Below, in pieces: positions 10,453 to 56,097 of a DNA stretch of 61,267 nucleotides. The first letter of the stretch is position 1. Each line of letters begins with the position of its first letter. Under the pieces are notes generated by a model. The model made no database searches and had not been told where the DNA came from. It worked only from the letters and a program-made list of their open reading frames with translations. A program made the translations under genes and the position numbers. The stretch is from Elusimicrobiota bacterium (GTDB lineage: Bacteria; Elusimicrobiota; UBA8919), in contig JBFLWK010000010.1 of NCBI GenBank assembly GCA_040757695.1, positions 1 to 61,267 of the forward strand, in the 5' to 3' direction.

Positions 10453-11619
10453 TCATTTTACTTTCTGGTAAAACTTTGCGATATCTTTATCGGATGGATC
10501 AAGTTTCAGCGCTTTTTCCCAGGCCAGTTTAGCATCTACCCGTTTTCCGAGCGCATAGTATGCAGAACCGAGCCGTTTCCATACGAGTATGTTGTCGGGT
10601 TCTATTGCGATAACAATCTCGCATTCTAAAATAGCGTGTTCGTATTTACCATCGTAAATATCTTCAAGTATTGTCGCAAGTTTCTGCTCTATAACATTTT
10701 TTCTTCCTTCCATTACTTCCAGTCGGGCGATTGTCGTATATTCTTTTTCCATAAAAATAAGTGTTTTTTCAGTAAGTTTGGCGTTAGGTGCGAGTTGCCA
10801 TGCATATCTGCTTGAGAGCACAGGCAGCCGTTCATCTTTACTGCCAAGAATATAAGCGGTTATACTTTTTCTGATAAGTTCGTTTATCTTACCTGCATCA
10901 GTAAGCGCTGGTGTCAGTGTTGAAACAAGTTTGCCTAATTTCTCAGCATGTTTCTGATATGTCGGATTTGATGGGTCTATTTCCAATAGTTGCTTAACTT
11001 TTTCCAGCGCATATGTATAACTACCTTTTTCTACCTGGAACTGGAATTCGTTAAGCAATGGTTTTACATTTTCTAACATTTTTGAGCGTGCCATTTCTAT
11101 CAGTTTCGGCGGGTTTTTCTGTTTCGGGTCTATTTTTAATATCTCTTCCCATACTGCTATCGCTTTTTTATAATCCTTTTTGTAAAATGATTCCATTGCA
11201 TTTTGGTAGAGCGTAAGGATATCCTGTGCATAAAGGCAGGAAAAAAATAAAAAGTTAAAAGCTAAAATTAAAATAACGGAAGAACGTGTTTTTTTAACAA
11301 TTGATGTAAAGATACTAATTAATTCGTCAGTTTCTTTGAATAAATTATCTACTTCGTTTTTTTGTATCAAACCGGAATTAAGCAATAATCTTAACCAATA
11401 TCTTGTTTCATTCGCTTCTTTTCTTGCGATATTTATACTGTGTGAAAAATCTTTTTTTGTCAGTCCAGAATACGCTTCTTCAGTATTAGCACCAACTGAT
11501 GTTGCAGAACGGGTTATTTGACCACCCAAAATTTTAGAAACTTGATTCAGCGGCAAATTTTGTACCAATTTAATTATCATTAGTGAAAATTTATATGTTC
11601 TTTCTTTCAAACCTAACAT
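10453..11619 (-). CDS. S23-type four-helix-bundle domain fused in frame to an exported TPR protein
   Basis: Residues 1-115 are an S23 (23S rRNA intervening-sequence protein) four-helix-bundle domain (LKERTYKFSLMIIKLVQNLP, then SVGANTEEAYSGLTKKDFSH and RKEANETRYWLRLLL). Residues about 116-131 are a hydrophobic stretch ending FFSCLYA-QD that looks like a signal peptide or membrane anchor. The remainder is a TPR-type helical protein (FYKKDYKKAIAVWEEILKID; ALGKRVDAKLAWEKALKLDP). No ATG, GTG or TTG lies in frame between the parts, so translation should give the fusion. The S23 part sits between inverted AT-rich arms at 11234-11659, as if an element had inserted into an older signal peptide. It is the last gene of the motor cluster. 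Confidence 0.85.
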   Translation of the reverse strand: MLGLKERTYKFSLMIIKLVQNLPLNQVSKILGGQITRSATSVGANTEEAYSGLTKKDFSHSINIARKEANETRYWLRLLLNSGLIQKNEVDNLFKETDELISIFTSIVKKTRSSVILILAFNFLFFSCLYAQDILTLYQNAMESFYKKDYKKAIAVWEEILKIDPKQKNPPKLIEMARSKMLENVKPLLNEFQFQVEKGSYTYALEKVKQLLEIDPSNPTYQKHAEKLGKLVSTLTPALTDAGKINELIRKSITAYILGSKDERLPVLSSRYAWQLAPNAKLTEKTLIFMEKEYTTIARLEVMEGRKNVIEQKLATILEDIYDGKYEHAILECEIVIAIEPDNILVWKRLGSAYYALGKRVDAKLAWEKALKLDPSDKDIAKFYQKVK

Positions 11620-11659
11620 TTTTTATTTTTATTTTAACTTTTATTTTAACTTTTTCTTA
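11234..11659. mobile_element. Hairpin element carrying an S23 four-helix-bundle ORF
   Basis: Left arm 11234-11276 (starts GGCAGGAAAAAAATAAAAAG, continues GTTAAAAGCTAAAATTAAAA) and right arm 11618-11659 (ATTTTTTATTTTTATTTTAA, then CTTTTATTTTAAC) are inverted copies with the S23 reading frame between them. The right arm provides the stop codon of the OmpA gene at 11646; the left end GGCA encodes the CLY of the signal peptide. This is the same architecture as at 51014-51553. Confidence 0.6.
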
Positions 11660-12416
11660 TTATGTTTATTTCAATTCGTCTGTTTTTTGCCTTATTTTCT
11701 TCGGTATCGTTTGGTGCAACAGGTTTATATTCACCGTAGCCGAATGTAGAGAATCTTTCGGGCACTATTTTTTCGGTATTGATAAAATAATTGATTACAC
11801 TGAATGCTCTTGCGGCAGAAAGTTCAAAGTTAGACCGGTATTTTTTTGATGAAATCGGAACATTATCAGTATGTCCTTCAACGATAATCGGGTTTCCCAT
11901 TGAACTGATAAGTTGTGCGATTTCTTTTAATGCAGGTAGCGCGGCATTTTTGAGTTCTGCAGAGCCACTATCAAACAGTATCGGATTGGCAAGCGAGATT
12001 TTTATCCGCTGTGCGTTTGTTTCAACTTTTGCGTATTCAGATAGATTCTTCTCTTTGATAAAATCTTCTATCTGTGTTCCGGCATTTGCCTCTTTTTCAA
12101 GTATTTCTATTCTTTTTAATTGTTCGGCACTACCACCAACACCTTTCTGAACCGCTGCCATCATTTTTTCGTAGCGGGCACCACCACTGTATAAAACTGA
12201 ATAGGCATAAAGTATCATAAAGAAAATCATCAGGATAGTCATAAGATTCGCATATGGTATTACCCAAGCACCTTCAGAAATAAAATGTTCACGAAGGTGA
12301 GGCTCGGTTTTTTCTTCTTCTGGTAAAGATTTTTCCTGCATTCCTAACTCGCCTTCAATCGCAGAAATTATATCCGCATCTTTTTCTTCAAAATAATCTT
12401 TGTCAAACTCGTCCAT
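11646..12416 (-). CDS. MotB/OmpA-type stator protein (second copy)
   Basis: A 256-residue MotB-like protein. A cytoplasmic acidic tail (1-50) is followed by a single membrane helix (VIPYANLMTILMIFFMILYA, about 52-72) and a C-terminal OmpA peptidoglycan-binding domain (PIIVEGHTDNVPISSKKY; ELSAARAFSVINYFI; RNRRIEINIIR). The Pro-Asp of proton-conducting MotB (the PxxD motif) is absent; the helix begins with VIPYANLMT, where N lies at the position usually held by the critical Asp. It is the second of two consecutive MotB-like genes after MotA. Confidence 0.85.
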   Translation of the reverse strand: MDEFDKDYFEEKDADIISAIEGELGMQEKSLPEEEKTEPHLREHFISEGAWVIPYANLMTILMIFFMILYAYSVLYSGGARYEKMMAAVQKGVGGSAEQLKRIEILEKEANAGTQIEDFIKEKNLSEYAKVETNAQRIKISLANPILFDSGSAELKNAALPALKEIAQLISSMGNPIIVEGHTDNVPISSKKYRSNFELSAARAFSVINYFINTEKIVPERFSTFGYGEYKPVAPNDTEENKAKNRRIEINIIRKS

Positions 12417-14046: not shown

Positions 14047-14160
14047 TCACAAAAAACAATTAAAAATGTAAAATGTAAAATTAAAAATTTATGTCAAAGA
14101 TTTTAATAAAACAATCTGCCACAATTTTTAATTTTGAATTTTTAATTTTTAATTGCCTTT
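14047..14160. repeat. AT-rich palindromic element (AATTAAAAAT...ATTTTTAATTGCCTTT)
   Basis: It opens with ACAATTAAAAATGTAAAATG and closes with AATTTTTAATTTTTAATTGC followed by CTTT, so the ends are inverted repeats of 7-bp A/T units. The central CCACAATTTTTAATT matches the signal-peptide cassettes at 45549, 47286, 49761 and 58553. It lies between motA and the FliF/FliG gene. Confidence 0.75.
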
Positions 14161-15675: not shown

Positions 15676-17658
15676 TCAAAAACTCATAGAAAACCGTATG
15701 TTGCCTGAGTTCTCTTTATATGTATTTGTTTCTGTAAATTTATCGCTGTAATCGGTTCGGGTATAGCCAACTGTTGCAGCAAGATTCTGACGAATATTAT
15801 AGGTGAACTCTATGGTCCCGGTCATACTTGAGTTGTCAGTGGATTGTCTGGGTTTATCTGCAGAACCTGTGTAAGAACCCCACATCGCAGCGGACAGTTT
15901 TGATGGGATGATATTCAGCCAGTTGAGGTTTAGCGAATATGATGTAGTTGTCGTATCGGTTGATGTAGCTAAATTATATGTTTTTGAAAATGTGGTGCCT
16001 GTTGCAACTGTTATTTTTTCTTTCAACCGTGTAGAAATTGAGAGATTGCCTGAATCCGTTTTCAGATTACTTGAGATACCTGTTTTATCGTTAAAATTGG
16101 ACCGCTGGGCAGAGATAGAAAGTGTTGTTAATTTTATACTATGTGAAACTGCTACGGATGGTGTTTGGGTCTCATTATTCAGTGCGGCGATTGGGTCGCC
16201 TTTTGCGATATTCATAGAATAACCAAGTGTTAATGTCGGATATTTAGTCCGACAGAATGTCAGTGATACACTACCTATATTCTGGGTTGATGTTTGTTTG
16301 CTCGGGTCTTTATTAATATTATCGTGATAGTTGTTGAAATATAATGATACATTACCAATATCTGTTCGTGAAAAGCCGGTTGATATTTCATATGATTCTT
16401 TATCTTTTGTTGACGATGGTGCACCGAGCGAATTAAAATCTGGCGAGATTCTGGAATATATACTCGTGAATGAAAAGTTTTTGATATTGAGTATTGAGAC
16501 CGTAGATTTCAGTCCGGTATCTTTTACAGCTTGTGACGAAATATCCTGCCAGTATTGTGCTTGTGCATATTCACTTTTTATACTGAGATTCTTAAAAAGT
16601 TCAAAATAACCATCAAGCCCGGCAACATTATTTTTGGTAGGTTTTGTCGTGCCAGGTATATCAATTGAATTTTTGTCATCTAGGCTCGCTATGTATGAAA
16701 CGCCGATACTAGAGTTCAGTATATCCAAGCCCTGACTTGCTCGTCCACCGAATGTGTATCTTTCATAAACGCCATTAGTTTTAGTTGTAGCACTGCCTTC
16801 CTGTTTTTTTTGTGATTCGGCTGCTACAACCGATGTTGAGAACCGCTGTTTCATACCAGCTAAATTTAACCCACGCACACCTGCACCATATAATACTAAC
16901 GAGTTATACGACGGCTGAATATCACCGAACGCAACCTGAACTGATTTTCCGTAATAACTGAACAGAAAATTGTCTAAATCAAAGTGGTTATCTTTAGTAT
17001 AAAGCGCATAAACATTTAACGAGACCGGTGTTTGGTATACGCTGCCAACTAAATTTAGATTCAGCGAGTTTGTATAGTTAACTGACGAGCCGTAGGTTTT
17101 ATATTCTTTTACTGCAAGTTTAGAAGCTAGAATCGCATTCCCGTCAACACTAATTTTAGCCGGCAGTTTTTCTGGTGTAGGCGGTTTGGCAAGTTCAATT
17201 ATTGTGAATGTTAAATACTCTGAAACTATTATTCGCTGCTCTTGCAGTGTCAGCGTAATTTTATAAAAATAATCGCCAGAATATGACGATGGCACATCAA
17301 ACGGGATATACACAAGCACTGTCTCGCCAGTGTTGACATCTTTGCCTTTAACTCTTTCCGTTTTTTTGATATATATCTTCTGTGTATCGTAAATTTCGGC
17401 TTCTAAATAATACTCGTCAGCAGCCCATTTTTCACTGCCGGTATTTAACGCAATTACCTGAAATGTGATTTTTTCACCCGCAGTAGCAGGGTCAGGTGAG
17501 GCAATTGTAAGCTGGATATTGCCCGACGGCGCCGCATAAAGGCAGGGTATAGGGTATAGGGTATAGGCAATAGTAAAAAAAATACAGGCAATAGCAAATG
17601 ACTTTATTCTACACCCTACACACTTCTCCATACACCCTGATTTTAGTTTCATTTTCAT
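15676..17658 (-). CDS. Outer-membrane beta-barrel protein with an N-terminal Ig-like domain
   Basis: The 660-residue protein starts at the ATG at 17658, overlapping the SpoVG stop as ATGA. Its signal peptide (IAYTLYPIPCLYA-AP, ending near 43) is encoded by a 7-bp repeat. Residues about 45-150 look like an Ig/CARDB-like domain (GNIQLTIASPDPATAGEKIT FQV region). The rest alternates hydrophobic and polar residues as in a long beta-barrel and ends with RFSMSF, a C-terminal Phe suitable for BAM recognition. It lies between spoVG and the FliF/FliG-like gene, so it could be the outer-membrane partner of the motor. No family name is recognised. Confidence 0.75.
   Translation of the reverse strand: MKMKLKSGCMEKCVGCRIKSFAIACIFFTIAYTLYPIPCLYAAPSGNIQLTIASPDPATAGEKITFQVIALNTGSEKWAADEYYLEAEIYDTQKIYIKKTERVKGKDVNTGETVLVYIPFDVPSSYSGDYFYKITLTLQEQRIIVSEYLTFTIIELAKPPTPEKLPAKISVDGNAILASKLAVKEYKTYGSSVNYTNSLNLNLVGSVYQTPVSLNVYALYTKDNHFDLDNFLFSYYGKSVQVAFGDIQPSYNSLVLYGAGVRGLNLAGMKQRFSTSVVAAESQKKQEGSATTKTNGVYERYTFGGRASQGLDILNSSIGVSYIASLDDKNSIDIPGTTKPTKNNVAGLDGYFELFKNLSIKSEYAQAQYWQDISSQAVKDTGLKSTVSILNIKNFSFTSIYSRISPDFNSLGAPSSTKDKESYEISTGFSRTDIGNVSLYFNNYHDNINKDPSKQTSTQNIGSVSLTFCRTKYPTLTLGYSMNIAKGDPIAALNNETQTPSVAVSHSIKLTTLSISAQRSNFNDKTGISSNLKTDSGNLSISTRLKEKITVATGTTFSKTYNLATSTDTTTTSYSLNLNWLNIIPSKLSAAMWGSYTGSADKPRQSTDNSSMTGTIEFTYNIRQNLAATVGYTRTDYSDKFTETNTYKENSGNIRFSMSF
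17536..17640. repeat. GGGTATA heptanucleotide palindrome encoding a signal peptide
   Basis: AAAGGCAGGGTATAGGGTAT is followed by further GGGTATA copies; the far end CACCCTGATT with CTACACCCTACAC is the inverted counterpart. On the minus strand it reads as the signal peptide of the barrel protein. A sister copy lies at 48484-48595. Confidence 0.85.
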
Positions 17659-30934: not shown

Positions 30935-31018
30935 TCAATTAAAAATGTAAAATGCAAAATGTAAAATTGTGGTAGAAAGCATTTTTAATTTTTAATTTTT
31001 AATTTTTAATTGCCTTTA
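30935..31018. repeat. AT-rich palindromic element ending TTGCCTTTAC
   Basis: CAATTAAAAATGTAAAATGC at the left and TTTTTAATTTTTAATTTTTA then ATTGCCTTTAC at the right are inverted repeats of 7-bp units; a GTGG loop is central. It supplies the stop of the GH57 gene at 31016. Confidence 0.85.
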
Positions 31019-41380: not shown

Positions 41381-44284
41381 TTATTGGAGTTCTATGTTCA
41401 AACTTTCACCATTACTTGTTTCACTTTCTATAGATGCGACACCGAAACCAGTAATACCGAGTTTAGTTGTAAAATTATATTTTTCACCATCAGTAATAGC
41501 AACCACGCTACCTGATGTATCCGTCCGACAGAAATTACTGCTACTGATACAAACTGCGTATCGTTTGAGTGTTGGGGTTAGTTCAGATTCATAGAAACTG
41601 CTGCCTTTCAGATAGCCGAACTGCAATATCACAAGTTCAGGCGAGACCGCTCTTATGAACTCATTTGTTGATGCGTATTTATCACCGTGTGAAGGCACCA
41701 GCAAAACTGTTGATTTTAATGTATCGGATGCGGCATCAATCAAAGCCCATTCTGCATCCCGTTTTATATTTGATGTGAACAGAAACGAGATTTTGCCGTA
41801 TACAAGTCGTAGCACAACTGAATTGTTACTAGTAATATCATCTGCTGATTGAAATCCAGTAGCAGGTGGCCATAATGCAAAAAGTTTTAGGTTTTGTTCC
41901 TGATAGATTATTTTACCAGCGGAAGCATGAAAATGTTTTTGTGGCAGGTTTTTGTTTGAATTTTTACAAATTGTTTTTAAGAACTCGTAATAATCTGTGT
42001 AGAACTGGCTGGTTTTTTTATTAAATGGTGCAAGTTGCAGTTTCCAATCACCGACTGCTGATAAAAATTCCGAATATGTGTTTTCAAGTGAACTTTTTTG
42101 GGGGTCTAATACACTCCAGATTTCAGCTATCGGTGTTTTTTCAATAACTGCGGGGAGCCCGCCGATATGGCCGGTTTCAAGCGATGTCAGAATCAATCGG
42201 TCAAGTTTTCTGATTTTATATTTAGAAAAAGTAGGCAGAATTGTTGAAGTGCCAAAATTCCAGTTACCACCACCTGTGCCACCATCAATCAGTATATTTT
42301 TGCCTTGTGGTGTCTGAATAATCACAGATGAGCCGAATGTAGCATCAAAGAATGTAACCTGTAATTTTTCAATTAGTCCAATTGGACTAATTGAAAAATT
42401 AAAATATATTACCAGCCCGATAACAGCAGATACAACAAGCCCGTAACATATTTTTTTTCTTAATTCTGGTACAGAAAGGATATCTTTTAGTTGATAATAC
42501 GCACCTTCTAACAGATAAAAAACCGGCTTATACATCACAAAAATCAAGACAGCGATATAATACAAAACAAGTTCTATTGGTGTTGGTATTTCAACAAACG
42601 GGTATGGGAATCGGACGGCAAAAAAATGCGCCATATCCATAAACAGTTTAGAACAAAGGTAGTTTGTAGAGTTTATCAAGAATGCTATTTTTAAGCCGAG
42701 CGCTGATAGCCCAACTGCTGAAAATACGAGTTCAAACAAATCGGCAATCAGTCCTAACTGAACTATGTAGCCAATTAATGGTATAGCGATATAATTTGCA
42801 TAGACACCTGCGATTGGGAACTGTTTAAAATATACAGCTGAAAGCGGCCACATCATCCCAATCTGTATAGCAATTTGAGAATATGTGAATACAACAAACG
42901 GTTTCGGCAGAGATTGGAAATCAAAATTTTTGAGTGGATATTTGTTGTTCAAAATTTTTGTTCCGACTACTGATAAACCTAATAGAATCAGGAATCCTGA
43001 CAGAAAATTTTTATTCACAAAAATATCCGGGTTGGTTACTGCGAGCCCTGTAGAGAGCAAAATCCACAACAGTATTACCAGAAACGACCAGCCACGCATT
43101 AAAAATCTGCATACATCTTCTACAGGACGAGATATATGTGCCAGAGACCATACAGCCATAAATGACAACACAAACGAGCCATCAGGCAGCATCAGCGGGT
43201 CAAAAAACAAAATGATAAATGCAGCGACTGGTATTGTAATCACGGTTGACATTCGCATTCCGAACCCGCCGAAAGTATACGCGAACTGACCTATTGATGA
43301 CATCAATGCGGCACGGCGTGTTGCGGGTGATGCGCCGGTAATTATTGTAAAAATTAACAATCCGAAAACGACTACAAACCAGGTAGGTTTTTTAGGCACC
43401 TTAAAAACCCGGCATAGCATCAACAGCAAAATATGGACGAACCCAACATGGAGTCCGCTAACTGCGAGCACATGTGCGACGCCAGTTGCGCGGAATTCGT
43501 ATTTTACTTTATCAGGCACACCACCACGGGAACCGAGCGAAACACCACCTAAAAATGCCGAGTAAGGATACGGCATTGTTTTTCTTATAGTTAATAGGAA
43601 TCTTCGTTTCAATTTTAGCGCAAATTGGGTTAGCCAGCCGCTTTCACCTTTACCAAGATATTGAATATATTCTGGATTTTTGACATACATCACTGCATAA
43701 ACATTTCTGGCTTTAAGATATCTTCCGTAATCAAACCCAGCTGGATTTTTTAATACTGATGGCGGTAGCAACGCAGCATCTACTTTTATTCTGTCGCCAT
43801 ATTCAACATTATAATAGAAGTCACCAACTGCAGGATAGATGGATACAAGCACATAACCGGTTTTACCTGTGAATGTGGTGCTACTTTTTATAATGCCCCA
43901 GCCGGATTTAGATGGTTTTTCAATCAGTTCCGGCTTTACTGTAAGTTTAGTATGAAAATCGCGTGCATCCGGTTCTCTGACAACTGTGCCGGTTAAAATG
44001 GTTCGGTCAAAAAAATTGGTATCAACAAACTGTGAAATATGGTTTCTACCTGAGATATCTATTTTTTTGTAGTAATTGGCAGCGGCAAAAAATGCAGGTG
44101 TTAGAATCAAAAATAGAGTAGTATATTTTGTTTTCTTGAAAAGTATGTAAAGTACACCGCAAACACCTGAAAATGTCCAGAGTATCGTTTGGGTTGTTAT
44201 TGGAATCGTTGCTGGATGAAGTATCATCGCTGCGGCAACACCTGCTACAAAAGCATAACAAAAAATAGTGAGTTTTTTGGTCAT
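41381..44284 (-). CDS. comEC: ComEC/Rec2-family DNA uptake channel with a degenerate MBL domain
   Basis: A 967-residue ComEC: an N-terminal DUF4131/OB region (ARDFHTKLTVKPELIEKPSK), the competence-domain membrane helices (GVAHVLAVSGLHVGFVHILL; ATRRAALMSSIGQFAYTF), and a C-terminal metallo-beta-lactamase-like domain (IIQTPQGKNILIDGGTGGGN; LVPSHGDKYASTNEF). In usual ComEC the metal-binding HxHxDH is present; here it reads LTSLETGHIGGLPAV, so most metal ligands are lost and the nuclease part is probably inactive. It overlaps the small gene upstream (ATGA). Import of single-stranded DNA is inferred from the family. Confidence 0.9.
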   Translation of the reverse strand: MTKKLTIFCYAFVAGVAAAMILHPATIPITTQTILWTFSGVCGVLYILFKKTKYTTLFLILTPAFFAAANYYKKIDISGRNHISQFVDTNFFDRTILTGTVVREPDARDFHTKLTVKPELIEKPSKSGWGIIKSSTTFTGKTGYVLVSIYPAVGDFYYNVEYGDRIKVDAALLPPSVLKNPAGFDYGRYLKARNVYAVMYVKNPEYIQYLGKGESGWLTQFALKLKRRFLLTIRKTMPYPYSAFLGGVSLGSRGGVPDKVKYEFRATGVAHVLAVSGLHVGFVHILLLMLCRVFKVPKKPTWFVVVFGLLIFTIITGASPATRRAALMSSIGQFAYTFGGFGMRMSTVITIPVAAFIILFFDPLMLPDGSFVLSFMAVWSLAHISRPVEDVCRFLMRGWSFLVILLWILLSTGLAVTNPDIFVNKNFLSGFLILLGLSVVGTKILNNKYPLKNFDFQSLPKPFVVFTYSQIAIQIGMMWPLSAVYFKQFPIAGVYANYIAIPLIGYIVQLGLIADLFELVFSAVGLSALGLKIAFLINSTNYLCSKLFMDMAHFFAVRFPYPFVEIPTPIELVLYYIAVLIFVMYKPVFYLLEGAYYQLKDILSVPELRKKICYGLVVSAVIGLVIYFNFSISPIGLIEKLQVTFFDATFGSSVIIQTPQGKNILIDGGTGGGNWNFGTSTILPTFSKYKIRKLDRLILTSLETGHIGGLPAVIEKTPIAEIWSVLDPQKSSLENTYSEFLSAVGDWKLQLAPFNKKTSQFYTDYYEFLKTICKNSNKNLPQKHFHASAGKIIYQEQNLKLFALWPPATGFQSADDITSNNSVVLRLVYGKISFLFTSNIKRDAEWALIDAASDTLKSTVLLVPSHGDKYASTNEFIRAVSPELVILQFGYLKGSSFYESELTPTLKRYAVCISSSNFCRTDTSGSVVAITDGEKYNFTTKLGITGFGVASIESETSNGESLNIELQ

Positions 44285-44564: not shown

Positions 44565-45654
44565 CTGTTTCGGGTTTTTTATCTGCATCTATTAATTCTT
44601 TTGGTAATTTTTCTTCCTGTGGCTGTTCTTTTGCTTCTTTTTCTTCTTCCTCTGGTATTTCGGGTTTTATTTTATGTTTAGGCAGTGGTAGTGATTTACC
44701 AAATCGTAGCCCTGTTGTTATATAATGCGAGACACCTAAATCAGAATGCGGGACAAACGCATAATCCAGATAGAACCTATTTATTCGCAGACCGAACCCG
44801 CTTGTAAACCCTGTGTAATCGGCAAACTTCCGTTGGTTAATTTTCCAGCCGAACCTTAGCCACAACGGTTCTGTTAAATGGTATTCTACTGCGAGCCGCT
44901 GTTTTAATCCGCTATCGTTGGGCTGAATAACTTCAACAAGCAAAGTTGCTCTATGTGAGAAACCCCACGAGCCACCGAGTTTTAATGTAAGTGTTAGCGG
45001 GTCGTTTTCTTTATCAAACTTGATATTATTACCGATATTAACGACTGCAGCACCGAGTGAAATGCGTTGTTTAGGTTGAGCAATAAAGATACCGATATTA
45101 ACTGCGAAACCATCGGCTGATTTATCGTTCAATTTTTCTGCGATATTTCGGACACCTAACCCAACTGAAAACTCATTAGTAATTTTGTAGGCGCCACTCA
45201 AAAGAACCGACCAATCAATTATGTCAAAACTACCTTTATCATTCCCGTAAATATCCCGTTCTGTATCTTTACTATTCAGATATTTTCCATTCAGCCCGAC
45301 TACATATTTCTTTAACGGCTTTACAAAAGTTAGCGATTGCACCGATGTCTGTTCAAAATATGCCAGATACGATAGATATATTTCGTTATTATAGATATTA
45401 CCAACCCCTGCGGGATTATATTCAATAATCCCGGCATCTTTTGCATAGCCGGTATACGCTTCTGCGAGTGATGAAGCCCGTGCAGCGACAGGGATATTCA
45501 GGAACTGCCCTGATGTTGTCCCGTTGGTATAGGTAAAGATAGCGGAATAAAGGCAATGAAAAATGAAAAATGAAAAATGAAAAATGAAAGTCAAAAACAA
45601 TCCACAATTTTTAATTTTTAATTGATAATTTTTAATTGCTTTTAGAATTGTCAT
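44560..45654 (-). CDS. PorV/UPF0164-family outer-membrane beta-barrel protein
   Basis: A PorV-like barrel (PorV/PorQ family, the type IX secretion shuttle group) of 364 residues. The signal peptide (KNYQLKIKNCGLFLTFIFHF to CLYS) is the repeat cassette 45549-45643. The mature part begins AIFTYTNGTTSGQFLNIPVA and ARASSLAEAYTGYAKDAGII, with YNPAGVGNIYNNEIYLSYLA, the conserved N-terminal motif of this family. The C-terminal tail (KPEIPEEEEKEAKEQPQ) is a charged extension. It overlaps the protease gene by 4 bp, suggesting the barrel helps its export. Confidence 0.85.
   Translation of the reverse strand: MTILKAIKNYQLKIKNCGLFLTFIFHFSFFIFHCLYSAIFTYTNGTTSGQFLNIPVAARASSLAEAYTGYAKDAGIIEYNPAGVGNIYNNEIYLSYLAYFEQTSVQSLTFVKPLKKYVVGLNGKYLNSKDTERDIYGNDKGSFDIIDWSVLLSGAYKITNEFSVGLGVRNIAEKLNDKSADGFAVNIGIFIAQPKQRISLGAAVVNIGNNIKFDKENDPLTLTLKLGGSWGFSHRATLLVEVIQPNDSGLKQRLAVEYHLTEPLWLRFGWKINQRKFADYTGFTSGFGLRINRFYLDYAFVPHSDLGVSHYITTGLRFGKSLPLPKHKIKPEIPEEEEKEAKEQPQEEKLPKELIDADKKPETE
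45549..45643. repeat. Signal-peptide cassette, copy 1 (95-bp hairpin element)
   Basis: The plus strand starts AAAGGCAATG, then four ATGAAAA units, AGTCAAAAACAATCCACAAT and ends TTTTTAATTGCTTTT; its ends are inverted repeats. On the minus strand it encodes the PorV signal peptide. Confidence 0.95.
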
Positions 45655-47390
45655 TTTATCAATGTTATTTTTCCACGAACTTTTTTGCTACCGATATCAA
45701 CTACATAATAGTAAAGCCCTGAGGCAACCAAATCGCCGTTATCATTTTTACCATCCCAGACCGCGAGACCATTATCAACTGATATTTCGTTTGTGATATG
45801 TTTCAAGTATCTTACTGGCATTGCGGCTAGATTGTAAATTGTTACATTGAACTCACTGCCTCTGTATTTTTCAGGTAATCGTATAGTAACAAACTCATGT
45901 TTTCGTGGATAGAACGGGTTGGGATAATTTTTTACTTTTAGCGGTGCAGTCCATGCAGTAGCCAGATTGCCACTTAATGCCTTATAGACATTTAGCCGAC
46001 CCCAGCCGGTATATTTATCCCAGCCGGGCACATCAAGGTTATCACAGGACGCTTCTAATATTTTTTTTATATCTGCTGGTGTCCGTGCAGGATTTTGCGA
46101 AATCAACAGCCCACAAACTCCGGCAACATATGGTGATGCCATAGAAGTGCCGTCCTCAAACTCATAATAAGATGAATTCCGTTTCCAGTCATTCTCCGAA
46201 TCAGACCAACTATATTCTGCATATGTACTGTAAACAGATGCACCCGGTGCTAACAGGTCAAGTTTTATCCCATAATTTGAGCCCCACGAATAGCCATTGA
46301 CTTCAGAAACTCTTTCATCATAAATATCAGACGCACCGACTGAAATCACACCATCATAACCCGCAGGATAACTGATAGAATTTATACCATCATTCCCAGC
46401 CGACGCAACAATAACGACATTTTTGTCTACTGTATAATCAACCGCATCTTTTACAAACCTTGATTGAATATAACCGCCTAAAGACAGATTTAGAACATCC
46501 GCACCATTATCAACAGCATATTTTATCCCCGCTGCGATATTTGATGCAGTAGCACCTGTACGGAAAGCATTAGCATCAAAAATCTTTACAATCATTATCT
46601 TTGATGTCCAGGAAACACCGGCAATACCGGTTGAATTATTCACAACTGCGGCGGCAATCCCTGCAACATGCGTTCCATGCCCGACAGTATCAATCGGCCG
46701 CGGGTCGCCATATTCTTCTTCCAGATTTGAATTGGGAGCATCCTGTCCATAAAGGATATTCACACCATAATAGTCCTCAATATAGCCGTTGTTATCATCG
46801 TCAATTTTATTACCATATGTATCTTTTGTATTGAGATAGATATTGGCTTCCAAATCCGGATGCCGCCAATCAACCCCGCTATCAATCACTGCGATAATAG
46901 AGGTTGTTACACCTTTAGAAAAAAGTGTGTTACTGCTTGTCCAGGCATCATACCAGTCAAGATATTTATCATCTGGTAACGCCCACTGTGCTGAATAAGA
47001 AGAATCATTGACCTGATAAGCCTTCATCAAATAATTCGGCTCTGCGTAAACAACATCAGGGTCGGCTGATAACATGGATACCATATCCTGAATACTGCTT
47101 CCATCAGGTATAGATACACGGAATACATTATTGAACTTCATATCCTGTATTGTTTTTGTATCGTATTTCGTGTTTATTATATTGATATCTACACTTTCTT
47201 TTACACGAACAATTATCTCACCACCTGCGACATCCACAGATTTAGAAATTGACGGAATGAATATGGATGCTTTTTGATAGCAGTAGAGGCAATGAAAAAT
47301 GAAAAATGAAAAATGAAAAATGAAAGTCAAAAACAATCCACAATTTTTAATTTTTAATTTATAATTTTTAATTGCTTTTAGAATTACCAT
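45651..47390 (-). CDS. Subtilisin-like serine protease (S8) with a type IX-like C-terminal tail
   Basis: A 579-residue secreted protease. The signal peptide is cassette copy 2 (CLYC-YQ). The propeptide (EIIVRVKESVDINIINTKYD; VVYAEPNYL) is followed by the S8 catalytic triad: Asp in VIDSGVDWRHPD (about 170), His in VGHGTHVAGIAAAVVNN (about 238) and Ser in DGTSMASPYVAGVCGL. The C-terminal 90 residues (LKVKNYPNPFYPRKHEFVTI; VRYLKHI; NGLAVWDGKNDNGDLVASGL YYYVV) match the NYPNPF-type sorting/FlgD-like Ig domain used by type IX secretion. Its start overlaps the preceding PorV-like gene. Export through PorV-like barrels is inferred. Confidence 0.93.
   Translation of the reverse strand: MVILKAIKNYKLKIKNCGLFLTFIFHFSFFIFHCLYCYQKASIFIPSISKSVDVAGGEIIVRVKESVDINIINTKYDTKTIQDMKFNNVFRVSIPDGSSIQDMVSMLSADPDVVYAEPNYLMKAYQVNDSSYSAQWALPDDKYLDWYDAWTSSNTLFSKGVTTSIIAVIDSGVDWRHPDLEANIYLNTKDTYGNKIDDDNNGYIEDYYGVNILYGQDAPNSNLEEEYGDPRPIDTVGHGTHVAGIAAAVVNNSTGIAGVSWTSKIMIVKIFDANAFRTGATASNIAAGIKYAVDNGADVLNLSLGGYIQSRFVKDAVDYTVDKNVVIVASAGNDGINSISYPAGYDGVISVGASDIYDERVSEVNGYSWGSNYGIKLDLLAPGASVYSTYAEYSWSDSENDWKRNSSYYEFEDGTSMASPYVAGVCGLLISQNPARTPADIKKILEASCDNLDVPGWDKYTGWGRLNVYKALSGNLATAWTAPLKVKNYPNPFYPRKHEFVTIRLPEKYRGSEFNVTIYNLAAMPVRYLKHITNEISVDNGLAVWDGKNDNGDLVASGLYYYVVDIGSKKVRGKITLIK
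47286..47379. repeat. Signal-peptide cassette, copy 2
   Basis: The plus strand starts GAGGCAATGAAAAATG, four ATGAAAA units, AAACAATCCACAATTTTTAA and TTTAATTGCTTTT. It encodes the protease signal peptide; it is nearly identical to copies at 45549, 49761 and 58553. Confidence 0.95.
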
Positions 47391-48601
47391 CTATACCTCG
47401 CGGTTATAATTATTCGCTGTATTGTTTCATCAACTCTGCGGTCATCAACACTTTTAATAGACCCGTCAGTTTTATAATTAACATTTACATTTTCTGCAGA
47501 TGACCTTTTTCCGAATTCATAGCCAAAATCTAAATCAAACAGTGGTAACTTAAAACCACTCCCAACAGTAAATGTATAGAATCGCGGTATAATTTTTTGT
47601 TGTTCAAATCCGCCGTGTTCCCAGTTTTTTTCATATTTATCCCAAGTATAATAAAAACTGCTGGTATAGAAACCATATCGGATTGCGAGGTAATCATAAA
47701 GCCATTGCTCAAAACCAACTCTGTAATCGGTTGTGTTGTAAAGTTTCACATTTTTCCAATTCATGCGATTAGTCTCAACTGTAAAAAGCGGTGCAAGTTT
47801 CCCTCGGAATTGATATGAAAAACCAAACCCAAATCCTTCTGGGATTTTAATTGTTTCGGTTGACTTCTGCAAATTGAGTGTCGCTTTTGCTCTGTAATAT
47901 CCGCCGAATTTTAACTGCCCGGTTTCGTAAAGGTATCCGACCAGAATTGAATTACCGTCAATAGATATTTTTTCATTACTGGATTCCCTTTCGCCGTTTA
48001 ACATATTGTAAGTAAGTCCAACCGAAAAACGGTCTGTCGCTTTCCAACCAATCGCAGCTGAATTAGTCCACAGGTCCCCTGATGAGTCAATTTTATTTTC
48101 GTATTCCAGCGTAGTTCTATCATAAATTGTTTCTGAATACCTGTATGAATAATTTACAACAGGCGCTCTCCCACCAGCAATATAAAAACCTAACGGCAGT
48201 TTGGCAGAAATAGAGCCTTCGTTAAACTGGTAATATGCTGGATTATTTTTTACCGTTGGCAGTCCGTAATTATTTGTGTATCTATCTGAAACAAGCACTG
48301 CGGCATTTGAAACTGATACTTGACAGTATTTCATTGAAGTAGCGGTAAGTGCAGCAGGGTTTGTAAAAATTGCAGAACTATCGTTAGAAACAGTGATAGA
48401 ATTACAGCCCATAGCGAGCGAGCGGGCAGAATAGCCACAGACAACATCACCGAGATAGTTATAGCCAAGCGAAGTGTAGCCGTAGAGGCAGGGTGTAGGC
48501 AGTAGGGTATAGGCAGTAGTGAAAAGAAAAAGATAGCCAATAGCCAAAATGATTTTGCTACACCCTACATCCTTCACCCTATACCCTGCTTTTTTTACCA
48601 T
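47384..48601 (-). CDS. PorV/UPF0164-family outer-membrane beta-barrel protein
   Basis: A 405-residue barrel. The signal peptide (GYLFLFTTAYTLLPTPCLYG) is encoded by the CCCTATA-type palindrome at 48484-48595. The mature start YTSLGYNYLGDVVCGYSARS LAMG has the family motif, followed by NSITVSNDSSAIFTNPAALT, and the protein ends ITARYRW, a C-terminal aromatic. It overlaps both neighbours by 7 bp. Members of this gene set may act as redundant shuttle barrels. Confidence 0.83.
   Translation of the reverse strand: MVKKAGYRVKDVGCSKIILAIGYLFLFTTAYTLLPTPCLYGYTSLGYNYLGDVVCGYSARSLAMGCNSITVSNDSSAIFTNPAALTATSMKYCQVSVSNAAVLVSDRYTNNYGLPTVKNNPAYYQFNEGSISAKLPLGFYIAGGRAPVVNYSYRYSETIYDRTTLEYENKIDSSGDLWTNSAAIGWKATDRFSVGLTYNMLNGERESSNEKISIDGNSILVGYLYETGQLKFGGYYRAKATLNLQKSTETIKIPEGFGFGFSYQFRGKLAPLFTVETNRMNWKNVKLYNTTDYRVGFEQWLYDYLAIRYGFYTSSFYYTWDKYEKNWEHGGFEQQKIIPRFYTFTVGSGFKLPLFDLDFGYEFGKRSSAENVNVNYKTDGSIKSVDDRRVDETIQRIIITARYRW
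48484..48595. repeat. GTAGGGTA/CCCTATA palindrome encoding a signal peptide
   Basis: AGAGGCAGGGTGTAGGCAGT and AGGGTATAGGCAGTAG on the left, CTACACCCTACATCC and CACCCTATACCCTGCTTTT on the right are inverted repeats. It encodes the signal peptide of the barrel at 47384; sister of 17536-17640. Confidence 0.9.
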
Positions 48602-49866
48602 TTTACTGTTCCTGTTAGTGTTAGCCGTTTTGTATAGTCGTCAACAGTTTCTAAATTGATTAACGGGTATGCGGCGTTTTCTTCAACTGGGAACAGCCGT
48701 GTTTCGGATGTTATTCGTCTCATAAAATACTGGAGTGCTATATCCCACTGAATAATCCATAATTTTAACCCACTACCGATAGAGACCACTGATGTTTGTA
48801 CACCTTTTCGTGTCTGGTCTTGAACAACCGCCAAGCCGTATCTGAATGGAATATCGTGTTTAAGCCAGTGTTCTGCACCGAAATGCCATGAAAGTGTATT
48901 ACAGTATCCGATATCAGTCCATTTACTATTGGCAACTTTTTGCTCGGCACTACCCCACCAAGTATAATCAAGTTGTATAAGAAATGTTGGTCTTGTGATA
49001 CCTCGGAATTTGAATGCGAACCCTGCCGAAAGTGTAGCCGGAAATCTATATTCATATCTGGACATTTGTCCATTTATAGAATAATCATTTTTAACTGACA
49101 ACAGATTATTCAACGCTATACCGAGTTTAAGTTCTTCTGATTGTAAAACGGTACCTATTCTGAACCCGCTGCCTGAAAACGAGTTATTAACAATACTGGT
49201 TGTTCGGCTGGTTTCTGAGCCCGTTTGAGGACTGAATAAAATTTCTGTAATTTTTCGGTCTGGTTTGCCGGTGATTAAAAAACCAGCTACACCTAATTTT
49301 AGCCATTCAACTGGGATATAACTTGCACCACCGCCGTAGATATAGATTTCGCCGTCAGCTGAGATACTATTCTTTTCAACTACTCGGATTTCACCATATA
49401 CATTTTCGGTATAATGGTAATTAGAATCCAAAATTTTGATTGCGCCTATTGCTACAGCCAGTTTCTGTTTTATCGGGCAGACTGAAACTGCGCCCGAGGT
49501 TGGCAAAAGATACAGATTAGAGTTTGATATAGTTGTCTGTTCTGCATCATTATGGAGTCGGCGTTCATATCCATTTATAAGTTCGTTAGTTTGAGATATA
49601 CTAACGCGGCTGTCTACTGAAAGTTCTGACGGATTAGCGAAGATTGATGTCGGCTCACCGCCTGACAGAACAGACACCTCGCCAACTGCGGCATTTCGGG
49701 CTGTGAACCCACCAACAGAGTCGCCCAAACCCAGCACCGCACCGCGGTAGGTGTAGCCGTAAAGGCAATGAAAAATGAAAAATGAAAAATGAAAAATGAA
49801 AGTCAAAAACAATCCACAATTTTTAATTTTTAATTTATAATTTTTAATTGCTTTTAGAATCACCAT
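48595..49866 (-). CDS. PorV/UPF0164-family outer-membrane beta-barrel protein
   Basis: A 423-residue barrel, signal peptide from cassette copy 3 (FHFSFFIFHCLYG). The mature start YTYRGAVLGLGDSVGGFTAR NAAVGEVSVLSGGEPTSIFA NPSELS is typical for the family, and it ends TLTGTVKW. It is a neighbour of two similar barrels and overlaps the gene after it by 7 bp. No specific substrate known. Confidence 0.83.
   Translation of the reverse strand: MVILKAIKNYKLKIKNCGLFLTFIFHFSFFIFHCLYGYTYRGAVLGLGDSVGGFTARNAAVGEVSVLSGGEPTSIFANPSELSVDSRVSISQTNELINGYERRLHNDAEQTTISNSNLYLLPTSGAVSVCPIKQKLAVAIGAIKILDSNYHYTENVYGEIRVVEKNSISADGEIYIYGGGASYIPVEWLKLGVAGFLITGKPDRKITEILFSPQTGSETSRTTSIVNNSFSGSGFRIGTVLQSEELKLGIALNNLLSVKNDYSINGQMSRYEYRFPATLSAGFAFKFRGITRPTFLIQLDYTWWGSAEQKVANSKWTDIGYCNTLSWHFGAEHWLKHDIPFRYGLAVVQDQTRKGVQTSVVSIGSGLKLWIIQWDIALQYFMRRITSETRLFPVEENAAYPLINLETVDDYTKRLTLTGTVKW
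49761..49855. repeat. Signal-peptide cassette, copy 3
   Basis: AAAGGCAATG, ATGAAAA units, AATCCACAATTTTTAATT, end TTTAATTGCTTTTAG; encodes the signal peptide of the barrel at 48595. Confidence 0.95.
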
Positions 49867-51419
49867 CTATACCTCACTGTTGTAATAAGCCGCGTGGTTG
49901 TATCATACACGGTATCACGCTGGTCTGAAAAAAACAATCTTTCCTGGGTTGATTCCTGCCAGGCATAACTTCCTGCTATATCTATTTCAACCAGCAGTGT
50001 TGGGATAGCGAACCCGCAACCAATAGAGAGTGCTGAATTTACACCACCATTTTTTATATATGATGGCAGATATGAAAACCCGTATCTTACTGTCATCCCT
50101 TCAAGTGGCAGATGCTCAAACCCGAGCGAGAATGCTAATACATCGCGGAATAACGGGTTTGTGGTTGACCAGTCAGCGAAACTCGCATCTATAAAAACAG
50201 CACAGTTGTTTTTATCTCTAAAATTATACTTTATACCAGCGGAAATTGAATTCGGATATTTATATTCTATTGTATAAGTTGAACTTGAGTTTAAGATATT
50301 GCCGGTTGTATCTATTTGTTTGACTTCTCGTTTAATTTCAGCCGAGTACTTATAAGCCAATCCGAGAGACATAATATCTTCAACCGAACACAACACTCCG
50401 ATATTGAATCCGTTTCCTGACAATTTAGATATTTCGTTGATTTTCCTGATGATATCAGGTGCGCCAGAAGTACCGAAAGTATTCAATTCCTGTTCTGATT
50501 TTATATCACCGTTTTTCAGCAACCCAGCAACACCTAAATTGAGCGATGTAAGTAACTGGTAGTTCACTGCAAGCCCGTAATCAAACAGATTCCCATGCTG
50601 GTCAATTGTATCCTGCCCGTTAGAATTCCCGTAGCCTCTATCCCGGACAGATTTTTCTTGAAACACATAATTAAAGTCAATTGCTTGTGCAGCACCAAGC
50701 CCGAATACAAACTCGCGAATTGACGACCACAGCATCCCTATAGATGTCGGCTGAAAAAAAATGTTCCGATTAGTTGTATACGATGTTGCTATATAAGAAT
50801 GGTTTCGTTTATCAGAAGTCCATACAACTGCGGGTGAGAAACTGAATACACCGTGATTATCACTACCAAGTTCCATACAAGCTGGATTAGTAAAAACGGC
50901 TGCGACATCCTGAGATACTGTAGTTGATACGCTACCGAGCCCGACGGATTCTGCGGATAGCCCGCGTGTGATACCTCCGATTCCGTAGTAGGACTCAAGT
51001 GAAGTATAGCTGTAAAGACAGGTTAAAGGGATAAATGACAGGTTAAAATTAAAGGTTAAAATTAAAATTAAAATTAAGGTAGAACGAACTTTTTTGACGG
51101 TTGAAGTAAAAATTTTTATGAGTTCATCACATTCTTTAAATAGATTTGCTACCTCTTCTTTTTTAACTAATTCAGCACCAAGTAATAATCTGAGCCAGTA
51201 TCTTGTTTCTAATGTCTCTTTCCGAGAAATATTTATACTATGGGAGAAATCCTTTTTTGTTAACCCTGCATATGCTTCCTCAGTATTAGCACCAACTGAT
51301 GTCCCAGAGCGCAACATCTGTTCTGCAATAATTCGGGCTATTTGGTTTTGGGGTAATTTCTGTACCAGTTTGATTATTTGCAAGGCAAATTTATATGTTC
51401 GTTCTTTTAGGTCCTGCAT
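49860..51419 (-). CDS. S23-type four-helix-bundle domain fused in frame to a PorV-like outer-membrane barrel
   Basis: Residues 1-115 are an S23 domain (LKERTYKFALQIIKLVQKLP; TSVGANTEEAYAGLTKKDFS; RKETLETRYWLRLLLGAELV), nearly identical to that at 10453. Residues 116-138 (STLILILILTFNFNLSF...) form a hydrophobic stretch that ends TCLYS and is made from TTAAAAT repeats. The remainder is a PorV/UPF0164 barrel (YTSLESYYGIGGITRGLSAE SVGLGS; TVSQDVAAVFTNPACMEL; C-terminal TTVRYRW). There is no ATG/GTG/TTG between S23 and the signal peptide. If translated whole, an S23 domain would precede the signal peptide, and export would need it as a cytoplasmic head. It fits insertion of an S23 element into the signal peptide codons. 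Confidence 0.85.
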   Translation of the reverse strand: MQDLKERTYKFALQIIKLVQKLPQNQIARIIAEQMLRSGTSVGANTEEAYAGLTKKDFSHSINISRKETLETRYWLRLLLGAELVKKEEVANLFKECDELIKIFTSTVKKVRSTLILILILTFNFNLSFIPLTCLYSYTSLESYYGIGGITRGLSAESVGLGSVSTTVSQDVAAVFTNPACMELGSDNHGVFSFSPAVVWTSDKRNHSYIATSYTTNRNIFFQPTSIGMLWSSIREFVFGLGAAQAIDFNYVFQEKSVRDRGYGNSNGQDTIDQHGNLFDYGLAVNYQLLTSLNLGVAGLLKNGDIKSEQELNTFGTSGAPDIIRKINEISKLSGNGFNIGVLCSVEDIMSLGLAYKYSAEIKREVKQIDTTGNILNSSSTYTIEYKYPNSISAGIKYNFRDKNNCAVFIDASFADWSTTNPLFRDVLAFSLGFEHLPLEGMTVRYGFSYLPSYIKNGGVNSALSIGCGFAIPTLLVEIDIAGSYAWQESTQERLFFSDQRDTVYDTTTRLITTVRYRW

Positions 51420-51553
51420 ATTTTAACCATAAAGTCAGGTTAAAGGTTTAAATGACAGGTTAAAATTAAAATAAAATCCAGAATTTTACCCTTTAACCTT
51501 AAACCTTTAACCTCTTATTTATACCTTTTATTTTTACCTTTAACCTGCCTTTT
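51014..51553. mobile_element. Hairpin element carrying an S23 four-helix-bundle ORF (second copy)
   Basis: Left arm 51014-51081 (starts AAAGACAGGTTAAAGGGATA, then AAATGACAGGTTAAAATTAA and repeated TTAAAAT) and right arm 51421-51553 (TTTTAACCATAAAGTCAGGT, AACCTTT copies, end CTGCC) enclose the S23 ORF. The arms belong to the AACCTTT family. The architecture equals 11234-11659, but the arm sequence differs, so only the organisation is shared. Confidence 0.65.
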
Positions 51554-53584
51554 TTACCATTTATACTCCAGACGGGCTTCCCAGGAATTGGCATAGCCGG
51601 GCTCTGTATACGAGAACACATCTTCGCCTTCGTATTCTTCAGACGACCACGCGTATTTATTGTTATATCGGATACGGAATTTTGTATTTTTGGATAATTT
51701 ATCTTCAAGTTGTAGCCAGTATGAGCGTGATTCTTTACCGCTTTTTCGTAAATCAGTATCTGAAAACTTTAACTCGCCTGATAGTTTTAAGTTGCCTGAA
51801 AGCTGGTATCCAGTTCTTGTAGAGATTGAGTCCTTTGGTGTATATTTTGATGGTGTATCGTAATAGTCCTGCGTATAGGTATATTTTAGCACGAAATCGG
51901 TTCGTTTTGATGGTTTAAATTTTAGTTGGGCATTTGTTTTGACACTCATTTTTTCGCTATAATCGTCATTTTGATAGATATCTTTATCAGCCCATTTCCT
52001 ATCCAGTTGAAACTTGACACCTCGTGGTAGGTTCCAGTTATATCTGAAGTACATTGTTCTGTCGGTAGTTGGTGTTTCCCAGACGGTATAGTATTCGCCG
52101 GTAATATCATCTTTTTCGGTTTTGGCAGAATGTTTGAACTGGTCTATATAAAATTTGATTTTCATTGATTTTATCGGTTTGTAGTCCAGTTCAGAATAAT
52201 AGCCCTGTTCATCGCGGCATGGGAACTTTGATGAATCGCTATGTTTTGAGTATGCGTTTGCGTACGGGTTATAGTGCTCCTTATCATAATTCCGGTATGA
52301 GACAATCACATCTAATGCACCCATTTTTTTGGCTGTTTTTACAAACAGCCCGTCACCCCAGTTAATCACGTGTGAAAGTTCACCAACTACCAGAAACCCT
52401 TTAATACCGGTCTTAAAATCGCAACCATACCCGGAGAATGCCTCTTCAGGCGGATACCCGTCTATATTTATAAACCCACCGAGCCGTTTTTCTCGTTTTG
52501 AGGTATAAAAAGTAGTACCGAAATACGAGGTCTCAAAAATATCTGTTCTATTAAAAAGTTTATAATTCAAGTTGCCACCAAGCAGTTCTTCTTCATACAT
52601 ATTTTCAAGTGTCCATTGTCTGACTTCACCATCAGGATGACGGATACATACTCGGAGTGGTTTTTTGGCTTTAGAATAGAAGCCGGAAATATCAAACGGA
52701 TTATTAGTTCCACCTTTTATTTTCATACCGAACCCTTTCAGTTTTACAGAAGTGGTTGCGTGTGGATATTTTGACTTAATTTTAGAAGTCCAGTAATAAG
52801 TGATAGTGCTTTGTGATGATGCGGTATCGTTTGGATAGAAACCGTTTGGTGACGATTTACCGGAAGTATCAAAAGTGAGACGCTGACCGAACCCTGCGCG
52901 GAAATCGCCGAGATATGCGGTATCAACTATTGGTCCATTCTCATAGCCGATATACGACCTGTTCAGTCGGTATGCTCTTGAAAAATTACTGCCTGTAATA
53001 CTGCCCATCTGGTCTACAAAATAGTCCTCGTATCTGGTATCACCTTCTACAATCGCACCGAATCTCAAGTATTTACCGAATTTAGCCAATTTGAACCGAA
53101 CCAGTTCTGTCGTTTGTGCTTCCTCTGTAGTATCTTGTTCAATATTTGATTTTGTTTTGAACAGGATATCGCCTTTTGTTCTGACTTTTTCAGGCAGTAT
53201 TGCAGTAATAAAAATTTTGATTCTATCAAAAGTAGGCTCATCCAGTATTTCAGGATTGATCAGTTCGTTGATATTTTTGTAATAGCCGTGCTGGAGTCGG
53301 TAGTTGATGATTCGGCTAGCATGAAGTTGGGAGATACCTGGCAGTGTCTGGAGTAGAAAAATATCCGCAGTATTGATATCTATTTTATCTTCATAAATAG
53401 CAAGGAGTTGCTCGTAGGTATTATAATCAATCTCATTATTCTGGTATGCCTGCTCAATATCCGCATCAGTTTCCCAGAGGTCTGTGCCTTCTATATCGCT
53501 ACTTTCGTCGGCATAAAGAAAGTGTGAAGTGTAAGGTGTAAAGTGTAAGGTAAAAACCAAAATAAGAAATACAATTTTTTTCAT
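51554..53584 (-). CDS. Outer-membrane barrel protein with an N-terminal ComEA-like helix-hairpin-helix domain
   Basis: A 676-residue protein starting at ATG 53584. The signal peptide (IVFLILVFTLHFTPYTSHFL YA) is encoded by a GTGTAA repeat. Residues about 55-130 hold a helix-hairpin-helix motif (DIDINTADIFLLQTLPGISQ LHASRIINYR; GYYKNINELINPEILDEPTF). This resembles the HhH DNA-binding modules of ComEA. Residues 150-676 form a long beta-barrel ending EARLEYKW. Secreted HhH plus barrel suggests binding of DNA at the outer membrane, with comEC further downstream. This is an inference, not proven. Confidence 0.75.
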   Translation of the reverse strand: MKKIVFLILVFTLHFTPYTSHFLYADESSDIEGTDLWETDADIEQAYQNNEIDYNTYEQLLAIYEDKIDINTADIFLLQTLPGISQLHASRIINYRLQHGYYKNINELINPEILDEPTFDRIKIFITAILPEKVRTKGDILFKTKSNIEQDTTEEAQTTELVRFKLAKFGKYLRFGAIVEGDTRYEDYFVDQMGSITGSNFSRAYRLNRSYIGYENGPIVDTAYLGDFRAGFGQRLTFDTSGKSSPNGFYPNDTASSQSTITYYWTSKIKSKYPHATTSVKLKGFGMKIKGGTNNPFDISGFYSKAKKPLRVCIRHPDGEVRQWTLENMYEEELLGGNLNYKLFNRTDIFETSYFGTTFYTSKREKRLGGFINIDGYPPEEAFSGYGCDFKTGIKGFLVVGELSHVINWGDGLFVKTAKKMGALDVIVSYRNYDKEHYNPYANAYSKHSDSSKFPCRDEQGYYSELDYKPIKSMKIKFYIDQFKHSAKTEKDDITGEYYTVWETPTTDRTMYFRYNWNLPRGVKFQLDRKWADKDIYQNDDYSEKMSVKTNAQLKFKPSKRTDFVLKYTYTQDYYDTPSKYTPKDSISTRTGYQLSGNLKLSGELKFSDTDLRKSGKESRSYWLQLEDKLSKNTKFRIRYNNKYAWSSEEYEGEDVFSYTEPGYANSWEARLEYKW
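53513..53550. repeat. GTGTAA(A/G) heptanucleotide-type repeat encoding a signal peptide
   Basis: AAAGAAAGTGTGAAGTGTAA, then GGTGTAAAGTGTAAGG. It encodes TLHFTPYTSHFLYA. Confidence 0.85.
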
Positions 53585-53602
53585 CAGACATCTTTTAAGT
53601 TT

Positions 53603-53654
53603 ACGGTGCTTAAAAATCACCGGCTTGTAGGCTACCCCTTAAGGGGTAGCCTAC
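53603..53654. repeat. Palindrome pair upstream of the HhH-barrel gene
   Basis: CGGTGCTTAAAAATCACCGG at about 53604-53623 is the counterpart of 2145-2163. GTAGGCTACCCCTT and its complement at 53627-53654 form a 28-bp perfect palindrome that provides the stop codon of the gene at 53651. Confidence 0.9.
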
Positions 53655-56049: not shown

Positions 56050-56097
56050 ATCTATTTTAACCTTTAACCTTTGACCTTTTACCTGTCTTTTGTCAGG
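56050..56097. repeat. AACCTTT repeat (partial hairpin)
   Basis: TTTTAACCTTTAACCTTTGA followed by CCTTTTACCTGTCTTTTG. It provides the last residues of the TPR protein at 56079. Confidence 0.85.

Follow-up and report, generated by a model that had tools for sequence, protein, structure and literature searches.

Heptamer-repeat hairpins, with and without S23 genes, at the starts of exported-protein genes in an Elusimicrobiota bacterium

The window, i.e., the whole analysed stretch of 61,267 nucleotides (contig JBFLWK010000010.1), contains a reading frame in which an S23 domain, a signal peptide and a TPR protein are fused, and we interpret this feature as a copy of a mobile hairpin element with S23 in its loop, whose product is processed away and of which short cassettes elsewhere in the genome are derivatives (probability about three in four). 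At the level of sequence, the architecture of the element, its dispersal, the turnover at one and the same site and a deletion derivative are demonstrated, and mobile hairpins are on this level inserted here and at many sites of the genome into genes of exported proteins. The elements are built of inverted arrays of ~7-nt repeats, A/G-rich upstream and T/C-rich downstream, with the S23 ORF in the loop; together with shorter hairpins of like build that lack S23 they are dispersed over the 23S rRNA gene, intergenic regions and the 5' ends of exported-protein genes. The main points of a preliminary description, which had read the feature as an S23 hairpin insertion, are supported, and their reach is wider than was claimed. 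The S23-hairpin observation was confirmed decisively because of comparative evidence, namely relatives at the same site, further S23 matches in the genome and near-identical copies elsewhere.

The product of the first fused ORF (Table 1) belongs to the S23 / 23S_rRNA_IVP protein family, with matches to PF05635 at aa 6-103 (78.4 bits; cut-off 33.8) and to TIGR02436, 'four helix bundle protein', at aa 5-111 (96.6 bits; cut-off 24), and the S23 alignment profile matches PDB 2gsc and 2rld; these family and structure matches establish the fold. Its domains are ordered S23, hydrophobic stretch TRSSVILILAFNFLFFSCLYA and TPRs. The in-frame joining of S23 to the TPR protein is borne out by a single 388-aa ORF in which no in-frame ATG, GTG or TTG lies between S23 and the signal peptide, and separate starts for the two parts, the objection that the preliminary description had anticipated, thus find no start codon. 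Strictly, such a start-codon-free stretch is confined to the two fused ORFs of the window and that of genome G213, and most other fusions contain at least one GTG or TTG.

The inverted AT-rich arms that had been described around the S23 frame were recovered at 11245-11274 and 11618-11647 (30 nt, 73% complementary), and the 5' flank of this S23 aligned with its own 3' flank at a local score of 20.0, compared to a mean of 9.5 against the 3' flanks of other loci, where a score as high was reached in 1 of 40 cases. Of the proposed arm-pairing structure one part stood: the arms are paired in the predicted RNA fold of element 1, but the fold of this AT-rich element is no more stable than those of shuffled sequences (z -0.14). 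The arms of element 2 are 47 nt long and 81% complementary and its fold is better than that of element 1 (z -3.35 versus shuffles). A hairpin around the S23 ORF, as in the intervening sequences (IVS) of 23S rRNA, is therefore present, with a stability above chance for element 2 only; element 1 is sited in a protein gene and not in a 23S rRNA gene. The Rfam search of the window returned no RNA family, and no target-site duplication was seen by eye at the elements, the relatives being too distant for empty sites at the nucleotide level.

Table 1. Elements, fused ORFs and short hairpins in the window.
Feature	Position	Strand	Remarks
Fused ORF: S23 domain, signal peptide, TPR protein	10453-11619	-	388 aa
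S23 hairpin element no. 1	11230-11655	-	
Element 1, A/G-rich 5' arm	11620-11655	-	
Element 1, S23 ORF	11297-11619	-	
Element 1, T/C-rich 3' arm	11234-11276	-	terminates in TGCCTTTA
Signal-peptide stretch TRSSVILILAFNFLFFSCLYA	11227-11289	-	aa 111-131; encoded by 3' arm and end of element 1
Mature TPR protein	10453-11226	-	orthologues in G001-G006 (family), G008 (order) and farther relatives
motB-like gene (OmpA domain), upstream	11646-12416	-	end abuts 5' arm of element 1; neighbour kept in relatives
Intergenic short hairpin, S23-less cassette type	14052-14160	-	38-nt arms, 84% complementary
Heptamer segment (GGTATAG)n	17537-17584	-	N-terminal region of ORF 15676-17658
Short hairpin, S23-less cassette type	30936-31018	-	32-nt arms, 81% complementary
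Cassette, 99% identical	45548-45648	-	signal peptide of OMPP1/UPF0164-type protein
Cassette, 99% identical	47283-47384	-	signal peptide of subtilase (Peptidase_S8)
Short S23-less cassette	49757-49862	-	signal peptide of ORF 48595-49866 (outer-membrane-type, no Pfam family)
Second fused ORF: S23, signal peptide VRSTLILILILTFNFNLSFIPLTCLYS, outer-membrane barrel protein	49860-51419	-	519 aa
S23 hairpin element no. 2	51009-51552	-	left end AAAGGCAGG; right arm terminates in CCTGTCTTTA
Element 2, S23 ORF	51097-51419	-	
Element 2, nested short hairpin	51431-51552	-	
Heptamer segment (AGTGTAA)n	53515-53563	-	signal-peptide region of ORF 51554-53620
Hairpin with 8-nt repeats	55277-55375	-	signal-peptide region of ORF 54178-55401
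Heptamer segment (AATAGCA)n	56845-56936	-	signal-peptide region of ORF 56079-57005
Cassette, 98% identical	58551-58641	-	signal peptide of LTD/FlgD_ig protein

The TPR gene adjoins the same motB-like gene in relatives, and the occupancy of the site between them turns over: S23 is present in the genome of the window (G000) and in G003, S23-less hairpins in G001, G004 and G006 (units GTCCAAT/CGGACAT, GGACTTC and CGTATTAC), S23-less AT-rich hairpins in G005 and G002, and signal-peptide N-termini in which a hairpin is not evident in G008, G040 and G056. This turnover supports the insertion of S23 as a hairpin element into a protein-coding gene. The orthologues without S23 but with other hairpins come from the same family and even from the same genus as G003. 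The two S23 copies of G003, one at the motB site and the other at the TPR site, have a DNA identity of 85% and an amino-acid identity of 81%, the latter compared to 60-70% with the copies of G000. S23 is demonstrably under purifying selection at the codon level (dN/dS 0.12-0.30 where computable). The intact frame, the lack of an internal start, a dN/dS of ~0.2 and the S23 at the TPR site of G003 would also suit a lasting domain fusion, in which S23 would function in the cytoplasm as an N-terminal domain of the TPR protein, with the hairpin being incidental. We consider such a fusion highly improbable given the other hairpins in S23-less orthologues of the family, the closer kinship of the G003 copies to each other than to those of G000, the joining of S23 in the same manner to unrelated proteins and an internally deleted copy on contig C7. 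A stable ancestral fusion without hairpins, which the preliminary description had named as the contrary outcome, was rejected on the variation at the TPR site and on the kinship of the G003 copies.

Fusions of S23, a signal peptide and an exported-type protein were also found in G003, G027, G205, G082, G213, G281, G229 and G282; in all of these but G003 the partners resemble PQQ-type propellers or PorV-like barrels, and the arm sequences vary. Upstream of the fused S23 of G082 (L080) lies a very long heptamer array of the GATGAGG type.

The preliminary description had proposed a search for other S23 hairpins in the genome, and these were found: there are 13 S23 matches in G000, and nearly all of the genes are enclosed by inverted arms made of ~7-nt tandem repeats; the unit varies by element, and the arms are complementary inside one element and different from element to element. 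At four loci (L005, L007, L012, L013) the downstream arm extends into the following gene, whose signal peptide it encodes. The 3' arms of L003 and L006 look as if they encoded prepilin-like leaders (..SNG/VTLVELM and ..SKG/LTFIELM), another cleaved region, and the downstream arm of L004 looks like an N-terminal extension of a glutamyl-tRNA synthetase-like protein.

For the arm test each S23 5' flank was paired with the 3' flank of its own locus and with those of other loci (swapped), and far flanks were scored likewise. The median scores (own, swapped, far) were 17.5, 8.9 and 8.5 for 41 loci of the phylum, and 17.0, 8.6 and 8.5 for 78 loci of many phyla across bacteria. An own-arm score of at least 13 was reached in 58 of the 78 bacterial loci and by none of the far flanks; in slightly reduced sets the counts were 34/39 (phylum) and 56/75 (across bacteria). 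The upstream arm is purine-rich (median 0.74 in the phylum set, 0.66 in the bacteria-wide set), and S23 flanks have a lag-7 autocorrelation of 0.38-0.39 versus ~0.26, with peaks at lags 7 and 14. Judged by these flanks, inverted heptamer arms generally accompany S23 genes. The elements are mostly sense-oriented and stand ahead of co-directional genes; in the bacteria-wide set a co-directional ORF starts within 160 nt after S23 in 64 of 80 cases, and a long fused S23 frame occurs once only, in a record with Elusimicrobia in its title. An end motif resembling GGCA...TGCC was present in 7/23 S23 5' flanks of the family versus 2/67 background windows; universal element ends were rejected, the motif being clear in some elements of the family only. 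At L074 (G003) the left end AGAGGCAAGTTAAAATTAAAAG is repeated upstream of S23 at intervals of about 50 bp, which looks like a serial addition of copies. Two heptamer hairpins are present at L211 in G018, in whose genome S23 was not found.

One cassette of 92-106 bp without S23 is present in six copies that are 96-99% identical, each opening a different exported protein, four of them within the window. With unrelated flanks and sharp borders, these dispersed near-identical copies have the marks of a mobile element. The cassette product, (A)IKNYKLKIKNCGLFLTFIFHFSFFIFHCLY, precedes a subtilase, outer-membrane-type proteins, an LTD/FlgD_ig protein and others, and its basic n-region derives from the upstream arm, its hydrophobic core from the downstream arm and its cleavage region from the end of the element. 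The preliminary description had linked the S23 element to short elements encoding signal peptides, and two observations speak for this link. Firstly, the 3' arm of the S23 locus L012 is 87% identical to that of the cassette. Secondly, a copy of element 2 at C7:42588-42904, 98% identical over 242 nt counted from the left end GGCAGGTTAAAGG, is without most of S23 (query 258-474 missing) and retains the right arm (88%); its flanks are unrelated to those of element 2, and it stands in frame with another, unrelated long exported-type protein, of which it forms the N-terminus. This deleted copy shows that the S23 element has moved in the history of the genome and that a route leads from S23 elements to the short ones, linking the two size classes.

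Tandem 6-9-mer segments number 36 per 100 kb in G000, 19 in relatives with S23 and 4 in relatives without it. In sampled stretches of G000 totalling 461 kb, where signal peptides were called by a crude criterion, 36 of 109 signal-peptide ORFs versus 13 of 228 others had a heptamer segment close to their start (p 1.7e-10); in the sampled relatives with S23 the enrichment was not significant (5/95 versus 8/264, p 0.34). The enrichment in G000 could be partly circular, as T/C-rich arms themselves encode hydrophobic residues, but a wholly circular origin is disfavoured because of the named exported hosts (subtilase, outer-membrane barrels). That the units differ among elements and that a long array such as L080 exists would also agree with an origin without any transposition, by which slippage would lengthen repeats at gene starts and these would be retained since T/C-rich arrays make good signal peptides. 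Slippage, however, makes neither complementary arms around S23 nor 96-99% identical cassettes in six genes, nor does it explain hairpins in 23S rRNA, and we regard it as extremely improbable. Two perfect, terminator-like palindromes were also noted in the window, at 42362-42401 (20 nt without loop) and 58668-58706 (18 nt with a 3-nt loop).

The 23S rRNA gene of G000 (L273:1625-4843, minus strand) spans 3,619 nt versus a model of 2,925 positions. Six heptamer hairpins, each roughly 75-120 nt long, are inserted in it and are absent from the aligned relatives (eight relatives, with the G029 and G008 slices off-register and of partial coverage). Their ends read TAACGGCAGGG...CCCTGCCGTTA or ATAAAGACAGGG...CCCTGTCTTTAT, the motif AAAGTCA occurs in several of their loops and also in the signal-peptide cassette, and 28 of 460 of their 12-mers recur in other short elements (0.25 expected). 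S23 was found in none of the six. The link to 23S rRNA inserts drawn in the preliminary description hence holds within the same genome, through short heptamer hairpins with similar ends and a common loop motif. The 23S rRNA of G000 is probably fragmented.

No catalytic activity is known for S23. DNA hairpins are substrates of HUH transposases. The heptamer hairpins might be non-autonomous elements of MITE or REP type that are moved by a transposase in trans, e.g., Y1/RAYT, with S23 as a passenger or hairpin-binding factor. There are 6 Y1 matches in G000, and Y1_Tnp tracks S23 among 45 genomes (both in 17, S23 only in 2, Y1 only in 3, neither in 23; p 2e-7), a correlation that is confounded by kinship and genome size. 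Yet S23 occurs without Y1 in G016 and G024, heptamer arms flank S23 across many phyla, and most Y1 genes examined sit between palindromes of their own (GGGGACGG...CCGTCCCC or GTAGACGGCA) instead of heptamer arms. We consider this explanation unlikely, and Y1/RAYT as a part of the element was rejected on account of these palindromes. RAYT/REP systems resemble the S23 system in that short hairpins are dispersed and have a partner that bears a gene between similar palindromes, but the S23 element is without an HUH nuclease, and the RAYT-like genes of these genomes have palindromes other than the heptamer arms. The RAYT-sized Y1 genes at L302, L304, L306, L308, L309, L314, L316 and L319, with palindromes of their own (GGGGACGG.., GTAGACGGCA..), form a separate REP-like system.

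Avd of diversity-generating retroelements (DGR) is, like S23, a small four-helix-bundle protein. S23 could act in retro-mobility, like Avd, with a reverse transcriptase (RT) copying the hairpin RNA. The prevailing sense orientation before co-directional genes and weak, Avd-like matches of the S23 model beside RT genes in G034 and G044 would fit such a process, but an RT above the cut-off was found neither in G000, where the search yielded only a sub-threshold fragment of 57 aa at a contig end, nor in G002-G007, all of which bear S23; RT is missing from all S23-bearing members of the family except one. Retro-mobility is thus very doubtful. The weak matches in G034 (G034:C20:47019-48685) and G044 (G044:C17:45666-48012) are probably DGR Avd proteins.

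According to our preferred reading, a mobile hairpin element with S23 in its loop would land, or survive, at places where processing removes its product. In genes of exported proteins the T/C-rich arm, read in frame, would supply the hydrophobic core and the end of the element the cleavage region (CLYA); a hydrophobic core and an LYA-type end are present in the TPR fusion of the window, and its orthologues have signal peptides. The cut by signal peptidase would leave S23 and the signal peptide behind and the mature protein unaltered, and equivalent removal may be performed by prepilin peptidase in prepilin genes and by RNase III in 23S rRNA. An insertion is probably nearly harmless because the hairpin arm is read as a signal peptide and cut off at export. 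As each unit of a heptamer array shifts the frame, the same seven residues would be encoded in any frame, and the T/C-rich strand, being poor in stops, would allow the arm to be read through in any of them. The S23 protein may bind the heptamer arms of its own hairpin and assist its movement, and the short cassettes would be non-autonomous derivatives.

Small mobile repeats that make up signal or membrane segments include the palindromic elements of Rickettsia, which occur in protein genes. Part of a signal peptide can also be contributed by enterobacterial RU elements (PMC2759123). Both are, like the cassettes, short inverted-repeat elements translated in frame, but they have neither S23 nor heptamer arms, whereas here many genes are involved and a larger, S23-coding relative exists. 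The S23 IVS of Coxiella burnetii, in which tandem heptamers (GACAGAT) precede the S23 start and which is excised by RNase III (PMC4990558), resembles the window elements as a hairpin with an S23-family ORF and tandem heptamers; in contrast, the S23 elements of the window stand at the 5' ends of protein genes, some fused to an exported protein, and the hairpins in the 23S gene of G000 are without S23. In the available text of the respective papers, no mechanism of spread is given for the heptamer repeats GGGAATC/GGGGAYT, which are known from Xanthomonas and Nostoc and in the former often form convergent inverted pairs (PMC4692102), and for the TAACTGA heptamers of Beggiatoaceae, Cyanobacteria and Bacteroidetes, often located just upstream of starts, horizontal spread is suspected by a mechanism that was not evident (PMC4679880). 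Both share 7-nt tandem units with the window elements, but that text states no link to S23 or signal peptides, and here the units are many and the arms match pairwise. A literature search, mostly of journals accessible without subscription, found no link of S23 to heptamer arms or signal peptides.

We tentatively propose, at somewhat less than even odds, that S23 genes across bacteria belong to one unrecognised mobile class, the heptamer-arm hairpin. In this class the S23 protein would attach to the arms and cause S23-coding as well as S23-less copies to spread, and in this lineage the hairpins would serve as portable signal-peptide cassettes, tolerated since signal peptidase, prepilin peptidase or RNase III cuts the inserted product away. 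If true, this class would account for both the intervening sequences of 23S rRNA and the long-noticed heptamer repeats. The present analysis connects the role of S23 and the origins of these two within one genome and, by way of the S23 flanks, across bacteria. It also reveals a mobile element by which signal peptides are encoded and which may be concealed in the discarded portion of a protein, a protein-level analogue of the removal of inserts from RNA.
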